A DNA stretch of 64,000 nucleotides, taken from assembly GCF_032854445.1 (NCBI RefSeq), contig NC_088302.1, positions 24,193,788-24,257,787 of the forward strand. The letters are read 5' to 3'. Under the pieces are notes generated by a model. That model made no database searches, was not told the DNA's origin, and saw only the letters and a program-made list of their open reading frames with translations. Positions 1-62,200 of the stretch are shown in pieces. Numbering within the stretch: the first letter of the stretch is position 1; each line of letters starts with the position of its first letter. This DNA is from Liolophura sinensis (Eukaryota > Mollusca > Polyplacophora > Chitonida > Chitonidae). Both the position numbers and the translations under genes were made by a program.

Positions 1-485
1 GGCAGAGTTTAATCACCCCACACAGTTCAAGGTAAGTGTCAGGTGAACAGTACATGTAGCAATCAGGCAGCCATAAGATGGGCTGTGGTATCCAGGCTGA
101 GGAGGAAGAGTTGAGGGTACAGTTAGAGGCCATACAGGCAGAGTTTAATCACCCCACACAGTTCAAGGTAAGTGACAGGTGAACAGTACATGTAGCAATC
201 AGGCAGCCATAAGGTGGGCCGTGGTATCCAGGCTGAGGAGGAAGAGTTGAGGGTACAGTTAGAGGCCATACAGGCAGAGTTTAATCACCCCACACAGTTC
301 AAGGTAAGTGACAGGTGAACAGTACATGTAGCAATCTGGCAGCCATAAGGTGGGCCGTGGTATCCAGGCTGAGGAGGAAGAGTTGAGGGTACAGTTAGAG
401 GCCATACAGGCAGATCTTAATCACCCCACACAGTTCAAGGTAAGTGACAGGTGAACAGTACATGTAGCAATCTGGCAGCCATAAG

Positions 486-575
486 ATGGGCTGTGGTATC
501 CAGGCTGAGGAGGAAGAGTTGAGGGTACAGTTAGAGGCCATACAGGCAGAGTTTAATCACCCCACACAGTTCAAG
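486..575 (+). CDS. nup54: NUP54 C-terminal exon, copy 5 (last intact copy of the array)
   Basis: Ninety nucleotides between a CATAAG acceptor and a GTAAGT donor encode 30 residues, phase 0 at both ends. The peptide contains ELRVQLEAIQAEFNHPTQFK, closely matching the conserved C-terminal helical region of metazoan NUP54 just before GRLNELMSQIRM. NUP54 forms the central-channel trimer with NUP62 and NUP58 in the nuclear pore, and this helical region is part of the trimer interface. Copies at 78-167, 214-303 and 350-439 are equally intact. Because the exon length is a multiple of three, including extra copies would lengthen the helix by 30 residues each without shifting frame. An alternative acceptor 18 nt upstream (after GTAG) is also in frame. 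This copy is the most downstream one that joins in frame to the exon at 1245. Confidence 0.85.
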
Positions 576-621
576 GTAAGTGACAGGTGAACAGTACATG
601 TAGCAATCAGGCAGCCATAAG

Positions 622-716
622 ATGGGCTGTGATATCCAGGCTGTGGAGGAAGAGTTGAGGGTACAGTTAGAGGCCATACAGGCAGACCTAAATCACCCCA
701 CACAGTTCCCCACAAG
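622..716 (+). pseudogene. nup54: Frame-broken sixth copy of the NUP54 exon
   Basis: This copy has the same acceptor and donor as its neighbours but carries five extra bases (CCCAC) just before the donor, making 95 nt. Splicing it to the next exon at 1245 would give R-S-T-E followed by a stop. It also has one substitution changing AEEE to AVEE. A productive NUP54 message should therefore skip this copy and splice from donor 576 or an earlier one. The diverged 3' flank (after 737) shows that this is the array edge. Confidence 0.75.
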
Positions 717-737
717 GTAAGTGACAGGTGAACAGTA

Positions 738-1244
738 CGTGTAGGAATTAGACAGGTTACCAGTCTTGCTACAGGTATAGGTATATGTACATGTTGTATT
801 ATGGTTTATTGGTGCAGTATAAAGGGTTAGGCAAAGTACTGGTCTTCCCTGTGTCAGAATACAATAATAGGGTGGGGCATCTGATAAGTTTGTTGTCTTC
901 AACATGGTTTTCCAATGAAGCAGCATTTGGCTACCCTAAATCCTCAACAAAACTGACCAGTAAAGTATAACTTAAATTGGAATATGAAAACATAATTTCT
1001 AGAGTCAAATGTATTTTTGGGGTAAGGGGACGTTAGATGTTCATAGGAACTAGAAAATAACTTGTCCAAATCAGATAGCATTCCTCTAATATGACAAAAC
1101 ATGCAGTATGTGTGTGTTCGAGTTTGTTGAGAATTCAGGGTAGCTTTCTGTAGGGAGGAACCATTGTAATATGACCAAAATGCTGTTGAAACTGAAATCT
1201 TCAAAACAGACTACACAAATGTGTGATGCTTCATTGTTTATTAG
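738..1244 (+). other. NUP54 intron downstream of the exon array
   Basis: This AT-rich stretch shows no recognised repeat or exon. It ends at a TTTATTAG acceptor immediately before the 1245 exon. Short open frames here have no coding character. Confidence 0.6.
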
Positions 1245-1355
1245 GGTCGACTGAATGAACTGATGTCACAGATTCGGATGAGGAATCAGCTGGGTATTTC
1301 GAAGTCAGATGTCAGTTACCAAATGGACAGCAGTTTGCAGGATGAGATTAGACAG
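1245..1355 (+). CDS. nup54: NUP54 penultimate coding exon
   Basis: The exon has 111 nt, is phase 0 at both ends, and is bounded by TTATTAG and GTATGT. It encodes 37 residues starting GRLNELMSQIRMRNQLG and ending SSLQDEIRQ. GRLNELMSQIRM is a hallmark stretch of the NUP54 C terminus in animals, and it follows the PTQFK that ends the upstream array exon, exactly as in the vertebrate protein. The rest is the helical segment that leads into the final exon. Confidence 0.92.
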
Positions 1356-2818: not shown

Positions 2819-2932
2819 TTATTGGCGCATCAACAGGAGGGGTTACAACATTTAATGCACATCATCAAAGAAGATGTGGAGAATTTAAACCTTATAGAGC
2901 AGGGTTTAGCGGACAGTAGTCATTTGAGATAG
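2819..2932 (+). CDS. nup54: NUP54 terminal coding exon
   Basis: The exon opens after CTCTTTTCAG in phase 0 and ends at TAG (2930-2932), giving 37 residues. The peptide contains HQQEGLQHLMHIIKEDVENL and LIEQGLADSSHLR. This matches the QQQEGLSHLI-IIKDDLEDI-LIEHGL end of animal NUP54; the last few residues present in vertebrates are absent. With the exons upstream it supplies the NUP62/58-interacting C terminus. Confidence 0.92.
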   Translation, partial: LLAHQQEGLQHLMHIIKEDVENLNLIEQGLADSSHLR

Positions 2933-20936: not shown

Positions 20937-21821
20937 TACTTTTAAGTATTTTTAAATGAAAGTATTTTCAGTTGTCTCTATGTTCAACCTTACTTCATAT
21001 GTTAGCTTTAACTTTTAGGCAGTGTTATGGTTAAACGATCACAACTGTAGCAGCTTGAATGAAGTCGGGAGGTACAACGGACCACTAGCTTATAAGTGAA
21101 ATATCACTATATTCTTATGGCAATGTGAACTCGGCCGAATCTTGTTGTTCATTAGGCTGATGATAACTGTGAAGGTAAAATATTTTTTTAAGAAGCTGTT
21201 TGGCCATAGTAGAGGACAAACAAGAAATACACATGACGCCTAGGCAGGGAGGCAACAATTTTATCATTACGTGCTTCGATGTTATAACAGAGTTGCGCCC
21301 CCTACTCCGTCAAGTCGGAAAATATCGGCCCGCTTAAATTCATTCAAATTTTCTTCTCATTCTAAGCTGTATTCAAATGAGAATGGTTGGTTTTACGGTT
21401 CGTATCTCCATATAAATTAGAAACTGTAAATGTGGAGTGAAGGAAAATAGTGAAATATCAAAAGAGTTCTAAAGCAAATCAGGTCTGGATTTATGTAAGC
21501 AATTCAAACAGACGGAAAGATCTTTGTGTCTCGAAATGAAGTTATAAAAATGTCGCTTCTGTCGTTGATACTAGATGGGATTATTATATATAGATACATG
21601 TTATATATAGATACATGAAATCGGCTCTCGACATCAAAGACATCATCATCCAGCTGCTTTGCCTAACATTACCACTCTCTCAATATAAATTTCGTGTTTT
21701 TCATTTCCAAAGATTCTTCAACTTCTTTATTATCTTTATAAACTTCTTCCCCTATGTCGTCTTTCGCTGAGATAAATCTGAGAATCCGAACCTGTTTTGG
21801 TGAATACTGATATAGAGGCCT
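20937..21821. other. Non-coding spacer between minisatellites
   Basis: AT-rich unique sequence. A short direct repeat (TATATATAGATACATG twice) lies near 21586-21617. No exon or known repeat is seen. Confidence 0.5.
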
Positions 21822-22540
21822 GTCCCGATCTCCAGACCTTTTTGTCCTGTCCCGATCTCCAGATCTTTTGGCCGGTACCGATCTCCAGACCTTTTTGTCC
21901 TGTCTCGATCTTCAGACCTTTTTGTTCTGTACCGATCTCCAGACCTTTTTGTCCTGTCCCGATCTGCAGACCTTTTCGTCTTGTCCCGATCTTCAGACCT
22001 TTTTGTCCTGTCCCGATCTCCAGACCTTTTTGTCATGTCCCGATCTCCAGACCTTTTCGTCCTGTCGCGATCTGCAGACCTTTTTGTCCTGTCCCGATCT
22101 GCAGACCTTTTCGTCTTGTCCCGATCTTCAGACCTTTTTGTCCTGTACCGATCTCCAGACCTTTTTGTCATGTCCCGATCTCCAGACCTTTTCGTCCTGT
22201 CCTGATCTCCAGACCTTTTTGTCCTGTCCCGATCTTCAGACCTTTTTGTCCGGTCCCGATCTCCAGACCTTTTTGTCCTGTACCGATCTGCAGACCTTTT
22301 TGTCCTGTCTTGATCTGCAGATCTTTTTGTCCTGTCCCGATTTGCAGACCTTTTGTCCTGTACCGATCTGCAGACCTTTTCGTCTGTCCCGATCTGCAGA
22401 CCTTTTTGTCCTGTCCCGATCTCCAGACCTTTTTGTCCTGTCCCGATCTCCAGATCTTTTGTACTGTACCGATCTCCAGACCTTTTTGTACTGTATCGAT
22501 CTCCAGACCCCTTTTTGTCCTGTCCCGATCTCCCGACCTT
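21822..22540. repeat. 27-bp minisatellite, about 27 copies
   Basis: The unit is CAGACCTTTTTGTCCTGTCC plus CGATCTC with variants at a few positions. A five-unit (135-bp) block is repeated (21961 and 22096 start the same variant order). Twenty-seven is a multiple of three and the unit lacks stops in several frames, so long open frames (up to about 250 codons) exist on both strands with 9-residue repeats such as SRSPDLFVL and DRDRTKRSG. These frames are a by-product of the repeat. Confidence 0.95.
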
Positions 22541-22732
22541 TTATTCTTTTAAGAATGATCAGTCTGATTCTGATATCAGTGGGTCAGGTGAAAAACTGCT
22601 GTCAAATTTATATTCGCATGTTTTAGTTGTGACCACAGTTATCCAACTGCATGAACGTAAATTGGCAACTGGATCTGTTATAGCAGGTTTGCACTTCAAT
22701 GTCTCATTTGGACAGATAAATCTTCTATTGTA

Positions 22733-23060: not shown

Positions 23061-24907
23061 GAGCAACTTGAAGCAATAAGGAGCTATCTCTAGAATTGTG
23101 TACAGTGATGCGCTTTACCCTTTCAGCGTTCGATCCTATTGTACGAAACTATACTTAACCAGTACAATCCTCTCTAAACTGTATCTCGGAAGAGCTGAAT
23201 CTCTTCAACCCGAGTGATATGCTTTAAATAGAAGATAAATAGTTGCCTCCTTTTTTCAGTCTTGTCATCAAGTTGCTCTTGAATTATACGCCGTTGAGGC
23301 CATACTGGTAACACTTCTGACTTGTCCCGCCACCCATGCAAGCAAACTGATACGACGGTTATCAGCAGACTCCAAACAGATCAATTTGTTCTGTAGTGTT
23401 ACACACATTTATCTGGCCTAACCTCGGTACGAACGCAGTAATGAGCCAGAAAGATAAAGAGAAGTATGCCAAACACGTAATTAAACATGTTCAATCGATA
23501 ATTATTACGTAACACTGTTTAAGAGATGAAACAAGAATCACCTTACGTGGTCATAAAGCGACCCCAATGTCTGATCACATATCCCATTTGAATTGCTTTA
23601 TCGCTTTAATTTAATAATAGCGTTAAACCTTGCATGTACTGCCAGTGAGAAGTTTCCTTAACCATAAACTGAGCCATTATTTATTTATTATTTTTATATT
23701 GGTGTTGTTGGCCATATTCAAGATTTGCATGCGCAACAAAATGAAGAATGACACTTGTTCAAATGAATCAGACGATGATGTATTGTGTGCATATTTATGA
23801 AAATAAATGTTTTTTTCACGCTGATGTATCACCCGTGCCACAATAGATCTGAAGACAAGTGTATCCCTGCATTAATTTACTTAGAAAAATAGGCACGATG
23901 TCCTATGTACTAAGGCTAATTTCCCTCTGATACAATTGTACAACAAAACCATGGGCTGACAATCAAATATGAGAACCCAAAGAGGCCCCACACTGCAGCT
24001 CTGACTCAAAACATCTTACGTCATGGTTCATTGTTAAGTTACAGCCCATGCGGCGTTCTCTACGCTCGCTTTACGTCACCACTAGCAAGTTTTTGTACTG
24101 AAATCTTGAATAACGGCCAGGTCACTGGGGTTACGCTGATCAGGCAGAAAGTGATGTAAGCAAAAACATAAACTCGATGAACTTTTTTTTGGTAATACTG
24201 GATAGATTTTGCATTGTCTTTGTATGCACGATATGAACCCAATCGACATCTAAAGAATTGAACTGAAAAATGCCGATTATAGTTCCGCGCTAGGATATTA
24301 GTGGTTAGGATATCTGAACAAACCCATGTGTACCGCACGGGCAAGGGCTCCAAGGTCAACTTGTCGAGTGGTGGAAAGCGGCGCATGCGCTGTTAGGAGT
24401 GTGGCCTTCACGAACCCTCAGACACAACAGTACTCGCCAGCCTACATCCACGAGGGGAACGGAAGTACATCCACCAGGAGAACGGACATCCATGAGGAGG
24501 ACGGTGTAGTGCGCATGACCCACCCATATGGCGCGAAATGCAAAATAGTGGGATATAGTTACACATTTGTGTTCACTAAAAAGACATACGGATTATATCA
24601 CTGTATATCTCATACCATTAACTTAAATTTTATTTACTACACCGCTTCTCCAAATTATCGAACTATCGACAACAGATGATGAATAAGACAAGGTATGTTA
24701 TAAATTATCGGTATAAATTATCGAACTATCGCCGTTAGATGATGAATAAGGCAAGGTATTCTATATCATAAGGATACAGCAGCCCACGGCCTCTGCAGAC
24801 CCGATTTACCGACATGGGCTTCATAGGCCTATAGGACTATACAATATACAGGTACTTGGTATCCGGTGCAGAACGGTGGTTTTCCCCCCGGCATCTATGT
24901 AAAATGT
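23061..24907. other. Unique stretch before the large minisatellite
   Basis: No convincing exon. It includes a short inverted SINE tail (about 23685-23727) and, at 24444-24505, three closely packed copies of the motif that forms the core of the following 53-bp array. Confidence 0.5.
24444..24505 (+). repeat. Short triplicated core of the 53-bp satellite
   Basis: ACATCCACGAGGGGAACGG, ACATCCACCAGGAGAACGG and ACATCCATGAGGAGGACGG occur at 23- and 19-base spacing without the ATTTACCTTCCTGCAGGTAT part of the later monomer. Confidence 0.75.
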
Positions 24908-27900
24908 GCCTAATTACCTTCATATAGGTATAAAGTAAAACATCCACGTGGACGACGGTGGCTAATTTTACCTTCCTGCAGATATAAGGCACAACATCCA
25001 CGAGGAGGACGGTGGATAATTTACCTTCCTGCAGATATAAGGCACAACATCCACGAGGAGGACGGTGGCTAGTTTACCTTCCTGCAGGTATCAGGTACAT
25101 CCACGAGGACGGTGACTAATTTAACTTCCTGCAGGTATCAGGTACAACATCCACGAGGAGGACGGTGGCTAATTTACCTTCCTGCAGGTACCAGGTACAA
25201 AATCCAAGAGGAGGACGGTGACTAATTTACCTTCCTGCAGGTACAGGTACAACATCCACGAGGAGGATGGTTGCTGGTTTACCTCCCTATAGATATCAGG
25301 TACAACATCCATGAGGAGGGCGGTGGCTAATTTACCTATCAATAGCTGGACAGTACAACATCCAAGAGGAGGACGGTGACTAATTTACCTAACTGCAGGC
25401 ATCAGGTACAACATCCACGAGGAGGACGGTGACTAATTTACCTTCCTGCAGGTATCAGGTACAAAATCCACGAGGAGGATGGTGGCTAATTTACCTTCCT
25501 GTAGTTATAAGGTACAACGTCAACTAGGAGGACGGTGGCTAATTTACCTTCCTGCAGGTATCAGGTACAACATCCACGAGGAGGACGGTGACTAATTTAC
25601 CTTCCTGCAGGTATCAGGTACAAAATCCACGAGGAGGATGGTGGCTAATTTACCTTCCTGTTGTTATAAGGTACAACGTCAACTAGGAGGACGCTGGCTA
25701 ATTTACCTTCCTGTAGGTAGCCTATCAGGTACAACATCCACGAGGAGGACGGTGACTAATTTACCTTCCTGCAGGTATCAGGTACAACATCCACCAGGAG
25801 GATGGTGGCTGGTTTACCTTCCTATGGGTATAACGTACAACATCCATGAGGAGAACGGTGGCTAATTTAACTTCTTACAAGTATAAAGTACAACATCTAC
25901 GAGAAGGAAAGTGGCTAATTTACCTTCCTATTGGTATAAGGTACAACATCCACAAGGAGGACGGTGGCTAATGTAACTTCTTACTGGTATAAAGTACAAC
26001 ATCCACGAGGAGGACGGTGACTAATTTACCTTCCTGCAGGTATCAGGTACAACATCCACGAGGGGGACGGTGGCTAATTTACCTTCCTGCAGATATAAGG
26101 CACAACATCCATGAGGAGGACGGTGGGTAGTTTACCTTCCTGAAGGTATCAGGTACAACATCCACGAGGGGGACGGTGGCTAATTTACCTTCCTGCAGAT
26201 ATAAGGCACAACATCCATGAGGAGGACGGTGGCTAGTTTACCTTCCTGCAGGTATCAGGTACAACATCCACGAGGGGGACGGTGGCTAATTTACCTCCCT
26301 GTAGGTATAAGGTACAACATCCACGAGATGCACAGTGGCTAATTTACCTTCCTGCAGGTATAAGGTACAACATCCACAAGGTGGAAGGTTGCTGGTTTAC
26401 CTTCCTATAGGTATAACGTACAACATCCATGAGGAGAACGGTGGCTAATTTAACTTCTTACTAGTATAAAGTACAACATCCACGAGAAGGAAAGTGGCTA
26501 ATTTACCTTCCTATTGGTATAAGGTACAACACCCACGAAGAGGACGGTGACAAATTTACCTTTCTGCAGGTGTAAAGTACAACATCCACAAGAAGCATGG
26601 TGGCTAGTTTACCTTCCTGCACGTGTCAGGTACAACATCCACGAGGAGGATAGTGGCTAACTTACCTTCATATAGGTATAACGTACAACATACACGAGGA
26701 GGACGGTGACAAATTTACCTTCCTGCAAGTATCAGGTACAACATCCACGAGGAGGATGGTGGCTAATTTACCTTCCTGCAGGTATCAGGTACAACATCCA
26801 CGAGGAGGATGGTGGCTAATTTACCTTCCGGCAGGTATCAGGTACAACATCCACGAGGAGGATGGTGGCTAATTTACCTTCCGGCAGGTATCAGGTACAA
26901 CATCCACGAGGAGGATGGTGGCTAATTTACCTCCCTGTAGGTATAAGGTACAACATCCAAGTGGAGGACGGTGACTAATTTACCTTCCTGCAGGTATCAG
27001 AAACAACATCCATGAGGAGGATGGTGGCTGGTTGACCTTCCTATAGGTATCGCGTACAACATCCACGAGGAGGACGGTGGCTAATTTACCTATGAATAGC
27101 TATACAGTACCACATCTTAGAGGAGGACAGTGGCTAATCTAGCTTACTGCAGGTATAAGGTACAACATCCACGAGGAGGATGGTGGCTGGTTTACCTTCC
27201 TATAGGTATCGCGTACAACATCCACGAGGAGGACGGTGGCTAATTTACCTATGAATAGCTATACAGTACCACATCTTAGAGGAGGACAGTGGCTAATCTA
27301 GCTTACTGCAGGTATAAGGTACAACATCCACGAGGAGGATGGTGGCTGGTTTACCTTCCAATAAGTATAACGTACAACATCCACGAAGAGGACGGTGACT
27401 AATTTAACTTCTTACTAGTATAAAGTACAACATCCACGACGAGGAAAGTGGCTAATTTACCTTCCTACTGGTATAAGGTACAACATCCACAGAGAGGACG
27501 GTGACTAATTTACCTGTCTGCATGTGTAAAGTACAACATCCACCAGGAGCATGGTGGCTAGTTTACCTTCCTGCAGGTGTCAGGTACAACATCCACGAGG
27601 ATGACGGTGGCTAATTTTACTTCCTACTAGTATAAAGTACAATATCCACGAGAAGGAAAGTGGCTAATTTACCTTCCTGCAGGTATCAGGTACAACATTC
27701 ACGAGGAGGATGGGGGCTAACTTGCCTTCCTATAGGTTTAACGTACAACATACACGAGGAGGACGGTGACTAATTTACCTTCCTGCAGGTATCAGGTACA
27801 ACATCCACGAGGAGGACGATGGCTAGTTTACCTTCCGGCAGGTATCAGGTACAACATTCACGAGTTGGACGGTGGCTAATTTACCTTCCTGCAGGTATTA

Positions 27901-30880
27901 GGTACAAAATCCACGAGGAGGACGGTGGCTAGTTTACCTTCCGGCAGGTATTATGTACAACATCCACGAGGAGGATGGTGGCTAATTTACCTTCCGGCAG
28001 GTATTAGGTACAACATCCACGAGGAGGACGGTGGCTAATTTACCTTCCGGCAGGTATTAGGTACAACATCCACGAGGAGGACGGTGGCTAATTTACCTTC
28101 CGGCAGGTATTAGGTACAACATCCACGAGGAGGACGGTGGCTAATTTACCTTCCGGCAGGTATCAGGTACAACATCCACGAGGAGGACAGTGACAAATTT
28201 ACCTTTCTGCAGGTGTAAAGTACAACATCAACGAGAAGGATGGTGGCTAGTTTACCTTCCGGCAGGTATTACGTACAACATCCTCGAGGAGGATGGTGGC
28301 TAATTTACCTTCCTGCAGGTATCATTTACAACATCCACGAGGAGGATGGTGGCTAATTTACCTCCCTGCAGGTATCATTTACAACATCCACGAGGAGGAT
28401 GGTGGCTAATTTACCTTCCTGCAGGTATCATTTACAACATCCACGTGGAGGATGGTGGCTAATTTACCTTCCTGCAGGTATCAGAAACAACATCCACGAG
28501 GAGGATGGTGGCTGGTTGACCTTCCTATAGGTATCGCGTACAACATCCACGAGGAGGATGGTGGCTAATTTACCTATGAATAGCTATACAGTACCACATC
28601 TTAGAGGAGGACAGTGGCTAATCTAGCTTACTGCTGGTATAAGGTACAACATCCACGAGGAGGATGGTGGCTGGTTTACCTTCCTATAGGTATCGCGTAC
28701 AACATCCACGAGGAGGACGGTGGCTAATTTACCTATGAATAGCTATACAGTACCACATCTTAGAGGAGGACAGTGGCTAATCTAGCTTACAGCAGGTATA
28801 AGGTACAACATCCAGGAGGAGGATGGTGGCTGGTTTAACTTCCAATAAGTATAACGTACAACATCCACGAAGAGGACGGTGACTAATTTAACTTCTTACT
28901 TGTATAAAGTACAACATCCACAACGAGGAAAGTGGCTAATTTACCTTCCTACTGGTATAAGGTACAACATCCACAGAGAGGACGGTGACTAATTTACCTG
29001 TCTGCATGTGTAAAGTACAACATCCACCAGGAGCATGGTGGCTAGTTTACCTTCCTGCAGGTGTCAGGTACAACATCCACGAGGAGGACGGTGGCTAATT
29101 TTACTTCTTACTAGTATAAAGTACAATATCCACGAGAAGGAAAGTGGCTAATTTACCTTCCTGCAGGTATCAGGTACAACATTCACGAGGAGGATGGGGG
29201 CTAACTTGCCTTCCTATAGGTTTAACGTACAACATACACGAGGAGGACGGTGACTAATTTACCTTCCGGCAGGTATCAGGTACAACATCCGCGAAGAGGA
29301 CGGTGACAAATTTACCTTCCTGCAGGTATCAGGTACAACATCCACGAGGAGGACGGTGGCTAGTTTACCTTCCGGCAGGTATCAGGTACAACATTCACGA
29401 GTTGGACGGTGGCTAATTTACCTTCCTGCAGATATTAGGTACAAAATCCACGAGGAGGACGGTGGCTAGTTTACCTTCCGGCAGGTATTATGTACAACAT
29501 CCACGAGGAGGATGGTGGCTAATTTACCTTCCGGCAGGTATTAGGTACAACATCCACGAGGAGGACGGTGGCTAATTTACCTTCCGGCAGGTATTAGGTA
29601 CAACATCCACGAGGAGGACGGTGGCTAATTTACCTTCCGGCAGGTATCAGGTACAACATCCACGAGGAGGACGGTGGCTAGTTTACCTTCCGGCAGGTAT
29701 CAGGTACAACATTCACGAGGAGGATGGTGGCTAATTTACCTTACTGCATGTATTACGTACAACATCCACGAGGAGGATGGTGGCTAATTTACCTTCCTGC
29801 AGGTATCATTTACAACATCCACGAGGAGGATGGTGGGTAATTTACCTTCCTGTAGGTATAAGGTACAACATCCACGAGGAGGACGATGACTAATTTACCT
29901 TCCGGCAGGTATCAGGTACAACATCCGCGAAGAGGACGGTGACAAATTTACCTTTCTGCAGGTGTAAAGTACAACATCAACGAGAAGGATGGTGGCTAGT
30001 TTACCTTCCTGCAGGTATTACGTACAACATCCTCGAGGAGGACAGTGGCTAATTTACCTTCCTGCAGGTATCATTTACAACATCCACGAGGAGGATGGTG
30101 GCTAATTTACCTCCCTGCAGGTATCATTTACAACATCCACGAGGAGGATGGTGGCTAATTTACCTTCCTGCAGGTATCATTTACAACATCCACGTGGAGG
30201 ATGGTGGCTAATTTACCTTCCTGCAGGTATCATTTACAACATAAGGTACATAAGGTATAAGGTACAACATCCACGAGGAGGACGATGACTAATTTACCTT
30301 CCTGCATTTATCAGGTACAACACCCATGAGGAGGATGGTGGCTGGTTTACCTTCATATAGGTATCACGTACAACATCCACGAGGAGGACGGTGGCTAATT
30401 TACCTATGAATAGCTATACAGAACCACATCTAAGAGGAGGACAGTGGCTAATCTACCTTCCTGCAGGTATCAGGTACAACATCCATGAGGAGGATAGTGG
30501 CTAATTTACCTTTCTATAGGTATAACGTACAACATCAACGAGGAGGACGGTGGCTAATTTACCTCCCTGTAGGTATAAAGTACAACATCCACGAGGAGGA
30601 CGGTGGCTGATTTACCTATCAATAGCTATACAGTACAGCATCCAAGAGGAGAGTGGCTAATTTACCTTCCTGCAGGTATCACGTACAACATCCATGAGGC
30701 GGATGGTGGCTGATTTACCTTCCTGCAGATATCAGTTACAACATCCACGAGGATGACGGTGGCTAATTCACCTTCCTTTAGGTATAAGGTACAACATCCA
30801 CGAGATGCACAGTGGCTAATTTACCTTCCTGCAGGTATCAGGTACAACATCCACGAGGAGGACGGTGGCTAATTTACCAT
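24908..30880. repeat. 53-bp minisatellite, about 112 copies, with higher-order structure
   Basis: The consensus monomer joins GGTATCAGGTACAACATCCA, CGAGGAGGACGGTGGCTAAT and TTACCTTCCTGCA. Copy variants include CCGGCAGGTATTAG and TATGAATAGCTATACAGTACC. Variant order repeats at exactly 1484 bp (28 monomers): GACTAATTTAACTTCTTACT at 27397 and 28881, and CTTGCCTTCCTATAGG at 27721 and 29205. After about 27.8 kb the offset becomes 1537 (29 monomers). Each monomer contains a splice-like TTACCTTCCTGCAG/GTAT junction. Fifty-three is not a multiple of three and frames are short, so it is not coding. Confidence 0.97.
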
Positions 30881-32597
30881 CCTTTCCCCCAGCAGATGAG
30901 TAAAACCCAACATTAACGAGGAAAAACCCAGTTTGCCTTTCTCTACGCGTACGTATATGAGAAAGGATTCACAGTACATTAGAATATAATCCACGAATTA
31001 TCCAATATTGCAAATCCAGTGACCACCAATCTCGGACAGTTGAATAAAAAAGCCAACAACCACATACTAGTTTAAATATATGTATCTTAAGGAGCCCTGG
31101 CGCAGCGCCATAACCCACTGCCCATGGAGAGTTTGCAAACAGAAACTCTAATTAAACAAGTTCCATTCTCTAAAAATGTTACAGTATTGTATTCATCCGG
31201 TTTGCAAAAACCTTTACAGAAAGACTATTATAAACTGAAGAACGCATTACTGGGATGTACGGACAAAAGTTGTGCTTCAATACATTTGCTGCACTACCCT
31301 TAGCAAGTTCATTAGTGTATAAACTCTCTTGTACATTCTAAGATTCTATACATATGTAAGAGAAGCAATGAATGGTATGGAGGTGGAATGGAAAATACAT
31401 TATAGGTGTAGGCTATATGTACAAGGCATATAGCCATGATACAAAAGATAACAATGATATAAAATACACATTTTCAACCCATCAGTCATCTATTATTTAC
31501 ATACACAGCATGCCATTTACGATTCAGTACTGCTGATTAAGCGGTGTGTTCTTAATTGTTCACTTATTGTAAGTGCCGTGTGTAACGAGGAATGTTCAGT
31601 TTGACAGCATCTTCGCCTTGCTTCTGGTAAAGATATGTGCAGTTTGTTGGATACAAGTAGTACGACTACATCCCGAACCAAAGCTTCCTTACATCTCCTA
31701 CTCCTGACTGTCCCTTCGTACCTTCAAAGAAAAAATGTGAACCGAATGTAATCCTGTCAAAGGCCTTCTATTCATTTGTAAAAGACTGAAATCTGGAAAT
31801 GTATATAGATTGCTACTAATTAAATATATATGCCTGCCCACTTTTTAGCAAGTCATGCGCGGAACAAAATTATGAAATTATAATGATGAATAATTAAACA
31901 CACATCTAAATGTAAATGACTATTTGGTGACTTCAGTATTCTGAGTTACCTTCCTTGTGTTTTTATGGCTTTAGTCTTGTCGAATGTTTATACACATTTG
32001 AACAGTCTGTGTATAGACTACTTGATTATCAAGCTGGAAAGCCATTCCGATACTACTCCATGCATAACTGGAGCCATAATAGCCAAATCTAATTATACCA
32101 AAAAAAAAAAAAAAATAAAATAAAATAAAAACAAAGAGATAAAATACAAGGTAAATACAAATCCATCCACATTTAAAACCTTCTGAATTCGCTCGATTCC
32201 TGGTAGCTGGGCTAGCTTGTGTACAAATCCAGATGTGGCGGGGCGCCTGAAGCAATGGTTTACACAAGAATGTAATCACACAGAGGGGTCATGGTCAATT
32301 TCCAATCCACATATACAGACAAGGTATACAAAAGCATATACAGATTGTTTCACATAATTTAATCACGCTCCATGTAAGCAGCAATGAATCAGTCACTTTT
32401 TCCTTCACTCTTGAACCAAAATAAGCTGTGACAACAAACAAACAGAACATCCCAGTTCTGTCCTGTAACAAAAAACCCTATAGGCATGATTATTTGAAAC
32501 ATGCATGAAGTAGACCGCGATTACTGGTAACCATCCTACCTACATGTACCTATACGTAGCTTTTGTCCCTAAGCTTTAATAGCTTATTCCTTTTTTC
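30881..32597. other. Unique non-coding stretch
   Basis: AT-rich, with a poly-A run at 32100-32115. No exon is supported. The boundary with the 53-bp array is a degraded monomer. Confidence 0.5.
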
Positions 32598-60640: not shown

Positions 60641-62200
60641 TGTAAAACTTAATTTTATCATGTTTATTTGATAAACTTTGCAGGCAGAACGTAAAACTTA
60701 ATTTTATCATGTCTATTTGATAAATTTTGCAGGCAGAACGTAAAACTTAATTTTATCATGTTTATTTGATAAACTTTGCGGGCAGAACGTAAAACTTAAT
60801 TTTATCATGTCTATTTGATGAACTTTGCAGGCAGAACGTAAAACTTAATTTTATCATGTTTATTTGATAAACTTTGCAGGCATAACGTAAAACTTAATTT
60901 TATCATGTTTAACTGATAAACTTTGCAGGCAGAACGTAAAACTTAATTTTATCATGTTTAACTGATAAACTTTGCAGGCAGAACGTAAAACTTAATTTTA
61001 TCATAGTTATTTGATGAACTTTGCAGGCAGAACGTAAAACTTAATTTTATCATGTTTATTTGATAAACTTTGCAGGCAGCACGTAAAACTTAATTTTATC
61101 ATGTCTATTTGATAAACTTTGCAGGCAGAACGTAAAACTTAATTTTATCATGTTTAACTGATATACTTTGCAGGCATAACGTAAAACTTAATTTTATCAT
61201 GTTTAACTGATAAACTTTGCAGGCAGAACGTAAAACCTAATTTTATCATAGTTATTTGATGAACTTTGCAGGCAGAACGTAAAACTTAATTTTATCATGT
61301 CTATTTGATAAATTTTGCAGGCAGAACGTAAAACTTAATTTTATCATGTTTATTTGATAAACTTTGCGGGCAGAACGTAAAACTTAATTTTATCATGTCT
61401 ATTTGATGAACTTTGCAGGCAGAACGTAAAACTTAATTTTATCATGTTTATTTGATAAACTTTGCAGGAAGAACGTAAAACTTAATTTTATCATGTTTAA
61501 CTGATATACTTTGCAGGAAGAACGTAAAACTTAATTTTATCATGTTTAACTGATATACTTTGCAGGCATAACGTAAAACTTAATTTTATCATGTTTAACT
61601 GATAAACTTTGCAGGCAGAACGTAAAACCTAATTTTATCATAGTTATTTGATGAACTTTGCAGGCAGAACGTAAAACTTAATTTTATCATGTCTATTTGA
61701 TAAATTTTGCAGGCAGAACGTAAAACTTAATTTTATCATGTTTATTTGATAAACTTTGCGGGCAGAACGTAAAACTTAATTTTATCATGTCTATTTGATG
61801 AACTTTGCAGGCAGAACGTAAAACTTAATTTTATCATGTTTAACTGATAAACTTTGCAGGCATAACGTAAAACTTAATTTTATCATGTTTATTTGATAAA
61901 CTTTGCGGGCAGAACGTAAAACTTAATTTTATCATGTCTATTTGATGAACTTTGCAGGCAGAACGTAAAACTTAATTTTATCATGTTTAACTGATAAACT
62001 TTGCAGGCAGAACGTAAAACTTAATTTTATCATGTTTATTTGATAAACTTTGCAGGCAGAACGTAAAACTTAATTTTATCATGTCTATTTGATAAATTTT
62101 GTAGGCAGAACGTAAAACTTAGTTTTATTATGTCTATTTGATAAACTTTGCAGGTAGAACGTAAAACTTAATTTCATCACGTCTATTTGATAAACTTTGT
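60641..62200. repeat. 49-bp intronic minisatellite, about 32 copies
   Basis: The unit joins AACGTAAAACTTAATTTTAT, CATGTCTATTTGATAAATTT and TGCAGGCAG. Each unit contains the inverted pair TTTATCA...TGATAAA, so single-stranded DNA or RNA can form a small hairpin per unit. A GCGGGCAG variant occurs at 60778, 61366, 61758 and 61905, spaced by 12, 8 and 3 whole units, which shows multi-unit expansion. Each unit also presents a TTTGCAG/G acceptor-like word within the intron. Confidence 0.96.

Follow-up and report, generated by a model that had tools for sequence, protein, structure and literature searches.

A tandem array spanning the exon 9 donor of NUP54 in the chiton Liolophura sinensis is probably an intronic minisatellite of decoy donors

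Background

According to the AGGT model, tandem duplication of a segment containing AGGT yields a new intron. For variable repeats at existing exon-intron boundaries, the 31-bp VNTR of human CBS is reportedly associated with reduced activity, a link said to go back to Lievers in 2001. This VNTR, named c.1444_1467+7(16_21) (PMC2630376), has 16-21 copies, each containing the exon-intron boundary, and as read from the variant name its unit joins 24 nt of exon end to 7 nt of intron start. In the human ABCA7 intron-18 VNTR, the repeat starts at the 5' splice site of exon 18 and each 25-bp unit runs from the donor GT; retention of one unit causes a frameshift, kilobase-long alleles exist, and with longer arrays expression is reduced and the following exon is skipped more often (PMC5954066). 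A dual-specific splice site array is described for human UBC, where head-to-tail units of 228 nt can be kept or removed without a change of frame; the units are bounded by AG|GT, a sequence that could in theory function at either end of an intron, as 5' or as 3' splice site (PMC10809524).

The array described here lies in NUP54 and shares features with each of these systems. As in ABCA7, the repeated unit carries a donor, but it is 136 bp long and contains 97 nt of exon; the splicing and expression effects are those measured for ABCA7 (PMC5954066). It resembles the CBS VNTR in that each unit joins an exon end to an intron start, while the CBS unit is shorter and its copies are fewer (PMC2630376). 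Its units are also bounded by AG|GT like those of UBC; however, 136 is not a multiple of three, stops occur in the spacers, and as an acceptor the boundary AG has a score of about -7.3 (compared with PMC10809524). As in intron gain by duplication of an AGGT-containing segment (PMC4974935), the duplicated piece includes AG|GT, but the NUP54 donor pre-existed and the old intron was lengthened, with no new intron needed. From its anatomy and sequence, the array is most likely an exon-intron-boundary VNTR of the ABCA7/CBS kind. A search within one paper collection returned no report of a NUP54 array.

Results and discussion

Extent and anatomy of the array

The stretch of DNA analysed (the window, 64,000 nt) corresponds to G000:C8:24193788-24257787 in a genome of 609 Mb, and unit coordinates within it were converted from contig positions via the window offset (Table 1). 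TRF detected a 136-bp tandem repeat at positions 1-755 with 5.5 copies and 95% matches, in agreement with the initial annotation, which had described at least six near-identical 136-bp units with GTAAGT donors. The array is real and larger than that description, since it starts upstream of the window and occupies G000:C8:24187588-24194535 (about 6.9 kb) with 47 donors, all of them near-consensus AAG|GTAAGT/G. The donors are separated by 46 steps, of which 43 are 136 nt, two are 415 nt and the last is 141 nt. In the two longer steps the spacer holds an element of 279 extra bp, labelled SINE-like by its appearance and bordered by a 14-nt repeat, ATGTAGCAATCTGG. The 5-bp insertion claimed for the final unit was found, and this last copy is indeed frame-broken, although it is copy 47 and not copy 6.

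Table 1 Features of the NUP54 array and its downstream exons
Feature	Location	Strand
3' end of the 136-bp array (final part of unit 42, then units 43-47; 47 units in all)	window 1..755	+
Upstream remainder of the 136-bp array	G000:C8:24187588-24193787	
Unit 43 (donor at 168; 97 nt from the exon, 39 nt from the intron)	window 71..206	+
Unit 44 (donor at 304)	window 207..342	+
Unit 45 (donor at 440)	window 343..478	+
Unit 46 (donor at 576)	window 479..614	+
Unit 47, last (141 bp; donor at 717, then remaining intron)	window 615..755	+
CCCAC, 5-nt insertion breaking the frame of the last copy	window 709..713	+
NUP54 exon 10 of this model (111 nt; GRLNELMSQIRM...EIRQ)	window 1245..1355	+
NUP54 exon 11, last coding exon (TAG stop)	window 2819..2932	+

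Each unit other than copy 1 consists of the last 97 nt of exon 9 followed by the first 39 nt of the intron. The breakpoint of the duplication is thus 23 nt inside the exon and the native acceptor lies outside units 2-47; because the duplication broke inside the exon, these units have 5' splice sites without the native 3' splice site. Thirty-two distinct sequences occur among the 47 units. Among units 2-47, divergence is greatest in unit 47, which has the insertion and a further 7 differences from its nearest units; copy 1 differs from its nearest units at 8 positions. Furthermore, units 2-20 were later duplicated as a block to give units 23-42; whole units were gained or lost between the two blocks, and one pair matches poorly. 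The two SINE-like copies, 3,407 bp apart, are identical (0/293 nt differences). The gains and losses between the two halves suggest, from one assembly, that copy number varies between individuals.

Host gene and native exon

With human NUP54 as the tblastn query, 11 collinear exon-sized matches were obtained, the first with an ATG near 24177930 and the last ending in the stop at window 2932. When exons 8-11 are joined, the alignment with vertebrate NUP54 spans 150 residues and nothing is inserted where exon 9 meets exon 10, and the joined C-terminal exons match NUP54 structures (E 9e-47) with no gap at the position of the array. The initial annotation therefore named the gene and the helical region correctly. 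A profile search with Pfam PF13874 gave a single locus above cut-off in the genome, with weak matches on C1, C4 and C7 below it; no second NUP54 or spliced retrocopy was found above this cut-off, and thus no trace of earlier splicing in the genome.

Copy 1 is the native exon of 120 nt, with the acceptor TGTGTGATTGACAG|GTTGTTGG, and it encodes VVGKQEINRK plus 30 amino acids. It holds the complete exon, and the other NUP54 exons are present among the 11 matches, exons 1-3 with putative donors. The distance from its donor to exon 10 is 7,347 nt. The 90-nt exon earlier assigned to each unit does not correspond to this native exon, and would need an exon-derived AAG|ATG as its acceptor.

Joining native exon 9 to exon 10 gives conserved NUP54 sequence. 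An in-frame TGA stands at +13 to +15 after every donor (47/47), so that a later donor used with the native acceptor would end NUP54 early, at the fifth codon past the end of the native exon. In units 2-46 the 90-nt frame has a TAG 21 nt upstream in 45/45 cases. When the last copy is joined to exon 10 the product reads PTRVD-stop, a stop as had been predicted for this copy. Skipping of the 111-nt exon 10 would stay in frame.

Acceptor sites in the array

To score candidate 3' splice sites, a position matrix was built from the ten acceptors of NUP54 itself, a small training set that was scored by leave-one-out. The real acceptors reach 4.1 to 15.2. For the array 936 AG positions were scored, with boundary AGs counted twice and AGs deep in the SINE-like inserts left out, and none (0/936, last unit included) reaches 4.1, the score of the weakest real NUP54 acceptor, compared with 9.4% of 716 AGs elsewhere in the gene. 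The acceptor proposed in the initial annotation for every unit, ATAAG|ATG, is exon-derived and has a mean of -8.8, worse than 91% of the 716 ordinary AGs; its AAG reads ACG in 5/45 units, with loss of the AG, and the claim that each unit has an acceptor is not borne out. A 72-nt in-frame reading that begins at TCCAG|GCT is the better candidate by sequence. Its CAG is kept in 45/45 units and its mean of 2.5 lies at the 84th percentile of ordinary AGs, below all ten NUP54 acceptors, and rare, low-level cryptic use of this site is possible. No branch-point-like YTNAY motif was seen in the three spacers inspected, and pyrimidines make up 45% before the AG. A functional 3' splice site in every copy, as a tandem array of alternative exons should have, was thus not found by sequence.

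Coding constraint on the units

Units 2-46 hold sixteen variants within the 90-nt frame. Of these, 12 are nonsynonymous and 4 synonymous, and the neutral expectation for N/(N+S) is 0.74-0.80. An omega of 0.2 was rejected (P=0.004), as was 0.3 (P=0.03), while for 0.5 P=0.19. The 12:4 ratio is consistent with neutral drift and an omega near 1 and shows none of the coding constraint expected of alternative exons, though weak constraint (omega 0.5) is possible. Diversity is similar in the exon-derived (0.0435) and intron-derived (0.0412) parts. Of 21 residues common to the native exon and two vertebrate NUP54s, at least one is altered in 43/45 units, most commonly by one Q to E change (38 units). 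No indel or stop was found within the frame in 45/45 units, but the lack of stops is uninformative, its probability with only 16 variants being about 0.43.

Proposed explanation and alternatives

These facts point, with good confidence, to an intronic minisatellite of decoy donors, in which copy 1 is the used exon and the rest is spliced out. A tandem duplication would have taken the last 97 nt of exon 9 with the first 39 nt of the intron, and repeat-unit and block duplication would have expanded it to 47 copies. Copy 1, having both native acceptor and native donor, would be the exon in use; its donor would be spliced across the entire array to exon 10, producing ordinary NUP54. The other 46 units would be intronic, and since each has a strong 5' splice site but no usable 3' counterpart, each would be a decoy donor and not an exon; pairing of a later donor with the native acceptor would bring in the stop at the fifth codon. 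We infer this splice usage from the sequence: because acceptors are lacking and the variation looks neutral, the extra units are probably spliced-out DNA and not protein repeats. A repeat of this kind can mimic an exon array to an annotator and yet probably be spliced out, as a duplication that breaks inside the exon takes the donor along and leaves the acceptor behind.

It could be argued that the units are true alternative exons of 72 or 90 nt, adding 24 or 30 residues per copy or used singly, and the open frame in 45/45 units, the invariant CAG of the 72-nt site and the strong donors would fit with this. However, no acceptor is comparable to the gene's own, the N:S ratio is neutral, shared residues are altered in nearly all units, and 24 and 30 are not multiples of seven, so that the coiled-coil register would shift. 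A true exon array was rejected on the acceptors and the neutral variation, and we consider this reading very unlikely; the length variants or one-copy-at-a-time use suggested earlier are not supported, since the units lack the native 3' splice site, no scored AG of the array matches a real acceptor of the gene, and the codon variation is as in neutral sequence. Control through a poison exon, formed by the frame-broken last copy, was also suggested. The stop produced by joining this copy to exon 10 agrees with it, but no scored AG of the array, including those of the last unit, reaches the score of a real acceptor, and among units 2-47 divergence peaks in this last copy. Edge copies that go unused are often the most diverged in an array. 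Without a usable acceptor in the array the last-copy poison exon was rejected, its divergence being that of an unused edge copy, and we regard such regulation as exceedingly improbable. Dual-specific splicing of the UBC kind was likewise rejected, as 136 is not divisible by 3 and TGA follows all 47 donors at +13 to +15. An assembly error that inflated or invented the copy number would account for two array halves that closely match and share an identical SINE-like insert, but the 32 distinct unit sequences, the whole-unit gains and losses between the halves and the similar arrays elsewhere in the assembly make it highly improbable.

The decoy-donor minisatellite could in addition have a function, a proposal compatible with it. 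The 46 extra donors of the intronic array might compete with the first one or disturb its pairing with exon 10, and copy number would then set the NUP54 level, with output lowered through decayed, stop-containing transcripts or through in-frame skipping of exon 10. The near-consensus donors followed by an in-frame stop at the fifth codon (47/47) fit with this, and an analogy is given by the ABCA7 VNTR extending from the exon 18 donor, for which single units are retained and, as length increases, the following exon is skipped and expression falls, although the retention events themselves were unchanged with length (PMC5954066). Block doubling and the gain and loss of units, on the other hand, look unselected, and we consider such tuning rather unlikely. 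Decay-coupled tuning is possible, the more likely route being use of later donors and not inclusion of the last copy. If the ABCA7 analogy holds, exon 10 skipping is the effect to expect in NUP54, and a mild effect of the array on splicing is possible.

Similar arrays elsewhere in the genome

Three occurrences of AGGTAAGT at similar spacing gave 397 + 381 = 778 matches per 26,660 single sites (2.9%), compared with 1.3-1.7% for control 8-mers at the same spacing (TGAATGGA, 503/29,208; GATAGTGA, 180/14,217; AGTGATAG, 269/16,085), so match counts were 1.7-2.3 times higher than for the three control words. Separate clusters on C1, counted by eye among the matches listed (which for AGGTAAGT reach C1:95.72 Mb of 96.43 Mb), numbered at least 18 for AGGTAAGT and at least 9 for GATAGTGA, the two words covered by this count. 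Per genome-wide site the rates are equal (18 per 26,660 and 9 per 14,217; Fisher p=1.0), so that by clusters donors are hit no more often than this one control 8-mer. The evidence for donors as a hot spot of repeat birth is mixed, and none is claimed here.

In 11 of the 18 C1 clusters among the matches listed, a coding exon was seen by eye to run into or up to the array, and in 7/18 none was seen; locus L022 had no tandem array holding the donor motif. Seven of these 11 loci have homology support, namely NDUFS2, RPTOR, RPC1 (POLR3A), an IKK-beta-like gene, a Fer2_2 protein (which we take to be XDH/aldehyde-oxidase), an EGF protein and, more weakly, IFT57, whose Pfam match is below the curated cut-off and which has no PDB match to IFT57. 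A Pfam search with ten peptides gave a match at E<=0.01 for five; the IKK peptide had only a sub-cut-off TBK1_ULD match, and the RPTOR, RPC1, L014, L016 and L025 peptides had none (L011 was outside the ten).

Four of these arrays have the same anatomy as that of NUP54, each at a 5' splice site: NDUFS2 (L012, G000:C1:95718500-95722000; 68 bp, at least 30 copies), RPTOR (L013, G000:C1:2083500-2085800; 61 bp, about 9 copies), the IKK gene (L010, G000:C1:34951500-34955500; 65 bp, about 35 copies) and POLR3A (L018, G000:C1:14888000-14890800; 44 bp, at least 37 copies). The split of the unit at the boundary was computed for nine loci, with IFT57 unresolved and the L011 split unreliable, and intron sequence makes up about 5-16 nt of the unit in the IKK, NDUFS2, RPTOR, POLR3A, EGF and Fer2_2 genes and in L025. 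The minimum intron size exceeds this length, and therefore the units of those genes cannot be spliced one by one. A coiled-coil gene (L011, G000:C1:1902500-1906500, positions 1485-2760) has a 126-bp array with a 57-nt in-frame exon piece showing few changes; its spacer looks pyrimidine-richer, but its acceptor-like site still scores at most 2.5, mostly 0.6, compared with 8.9 for the native acceptor.

The most economical explanation is an abundance of tandem repeats in this genome (TRF gave 25 rows, some overlapping, in the window), with those spanning donors being tolerated since the gene still works from its first donor. If the other arrays are alike, repeats across 5' splice sites would be tolerated in core genes, and the genome would supply natural examples of how runs of near-identical donors are passed over, and of whether output depends on array length, as is reported for ABCA7. 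A bolder reading is that such arrays are frequent in housekeeping genes (NUP54, NDUFS2, RPTOR, an IKK, POLR3A and others) and that copy number acts as a heritable, fast-mutating expression dial through donor competition, exon skipping or decay; we think this unlikely.

Other repeats and the mitochondrial contig

Three further arrays were noted in the window. At 60642-62199 there are 32 copies of a 49-bp unit, GTAAAAC...ACTTTGCAG|GCAGAAC, which resembles a GT-AG intron of 42 nt with 7 nt added; by eye, no exon was recognised on either side. At 24906-30883, about 113 copies of a 53-bp unit have a consensus with CTGCAG|GTATCAG. The 27-bp array at 21819-22542 (27 copies) has several open frames (ORFs of 256-271 aa) and is possibly a coding repeat. 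Furthermore, mitochondrial COX1, whose frame holds 8 TGA, was found once on C632 and seven times on G000:C99 at steps of about 15.5 kb; because of this regular recurrence, C99 is probably a concatenated mitochondrial assembly.
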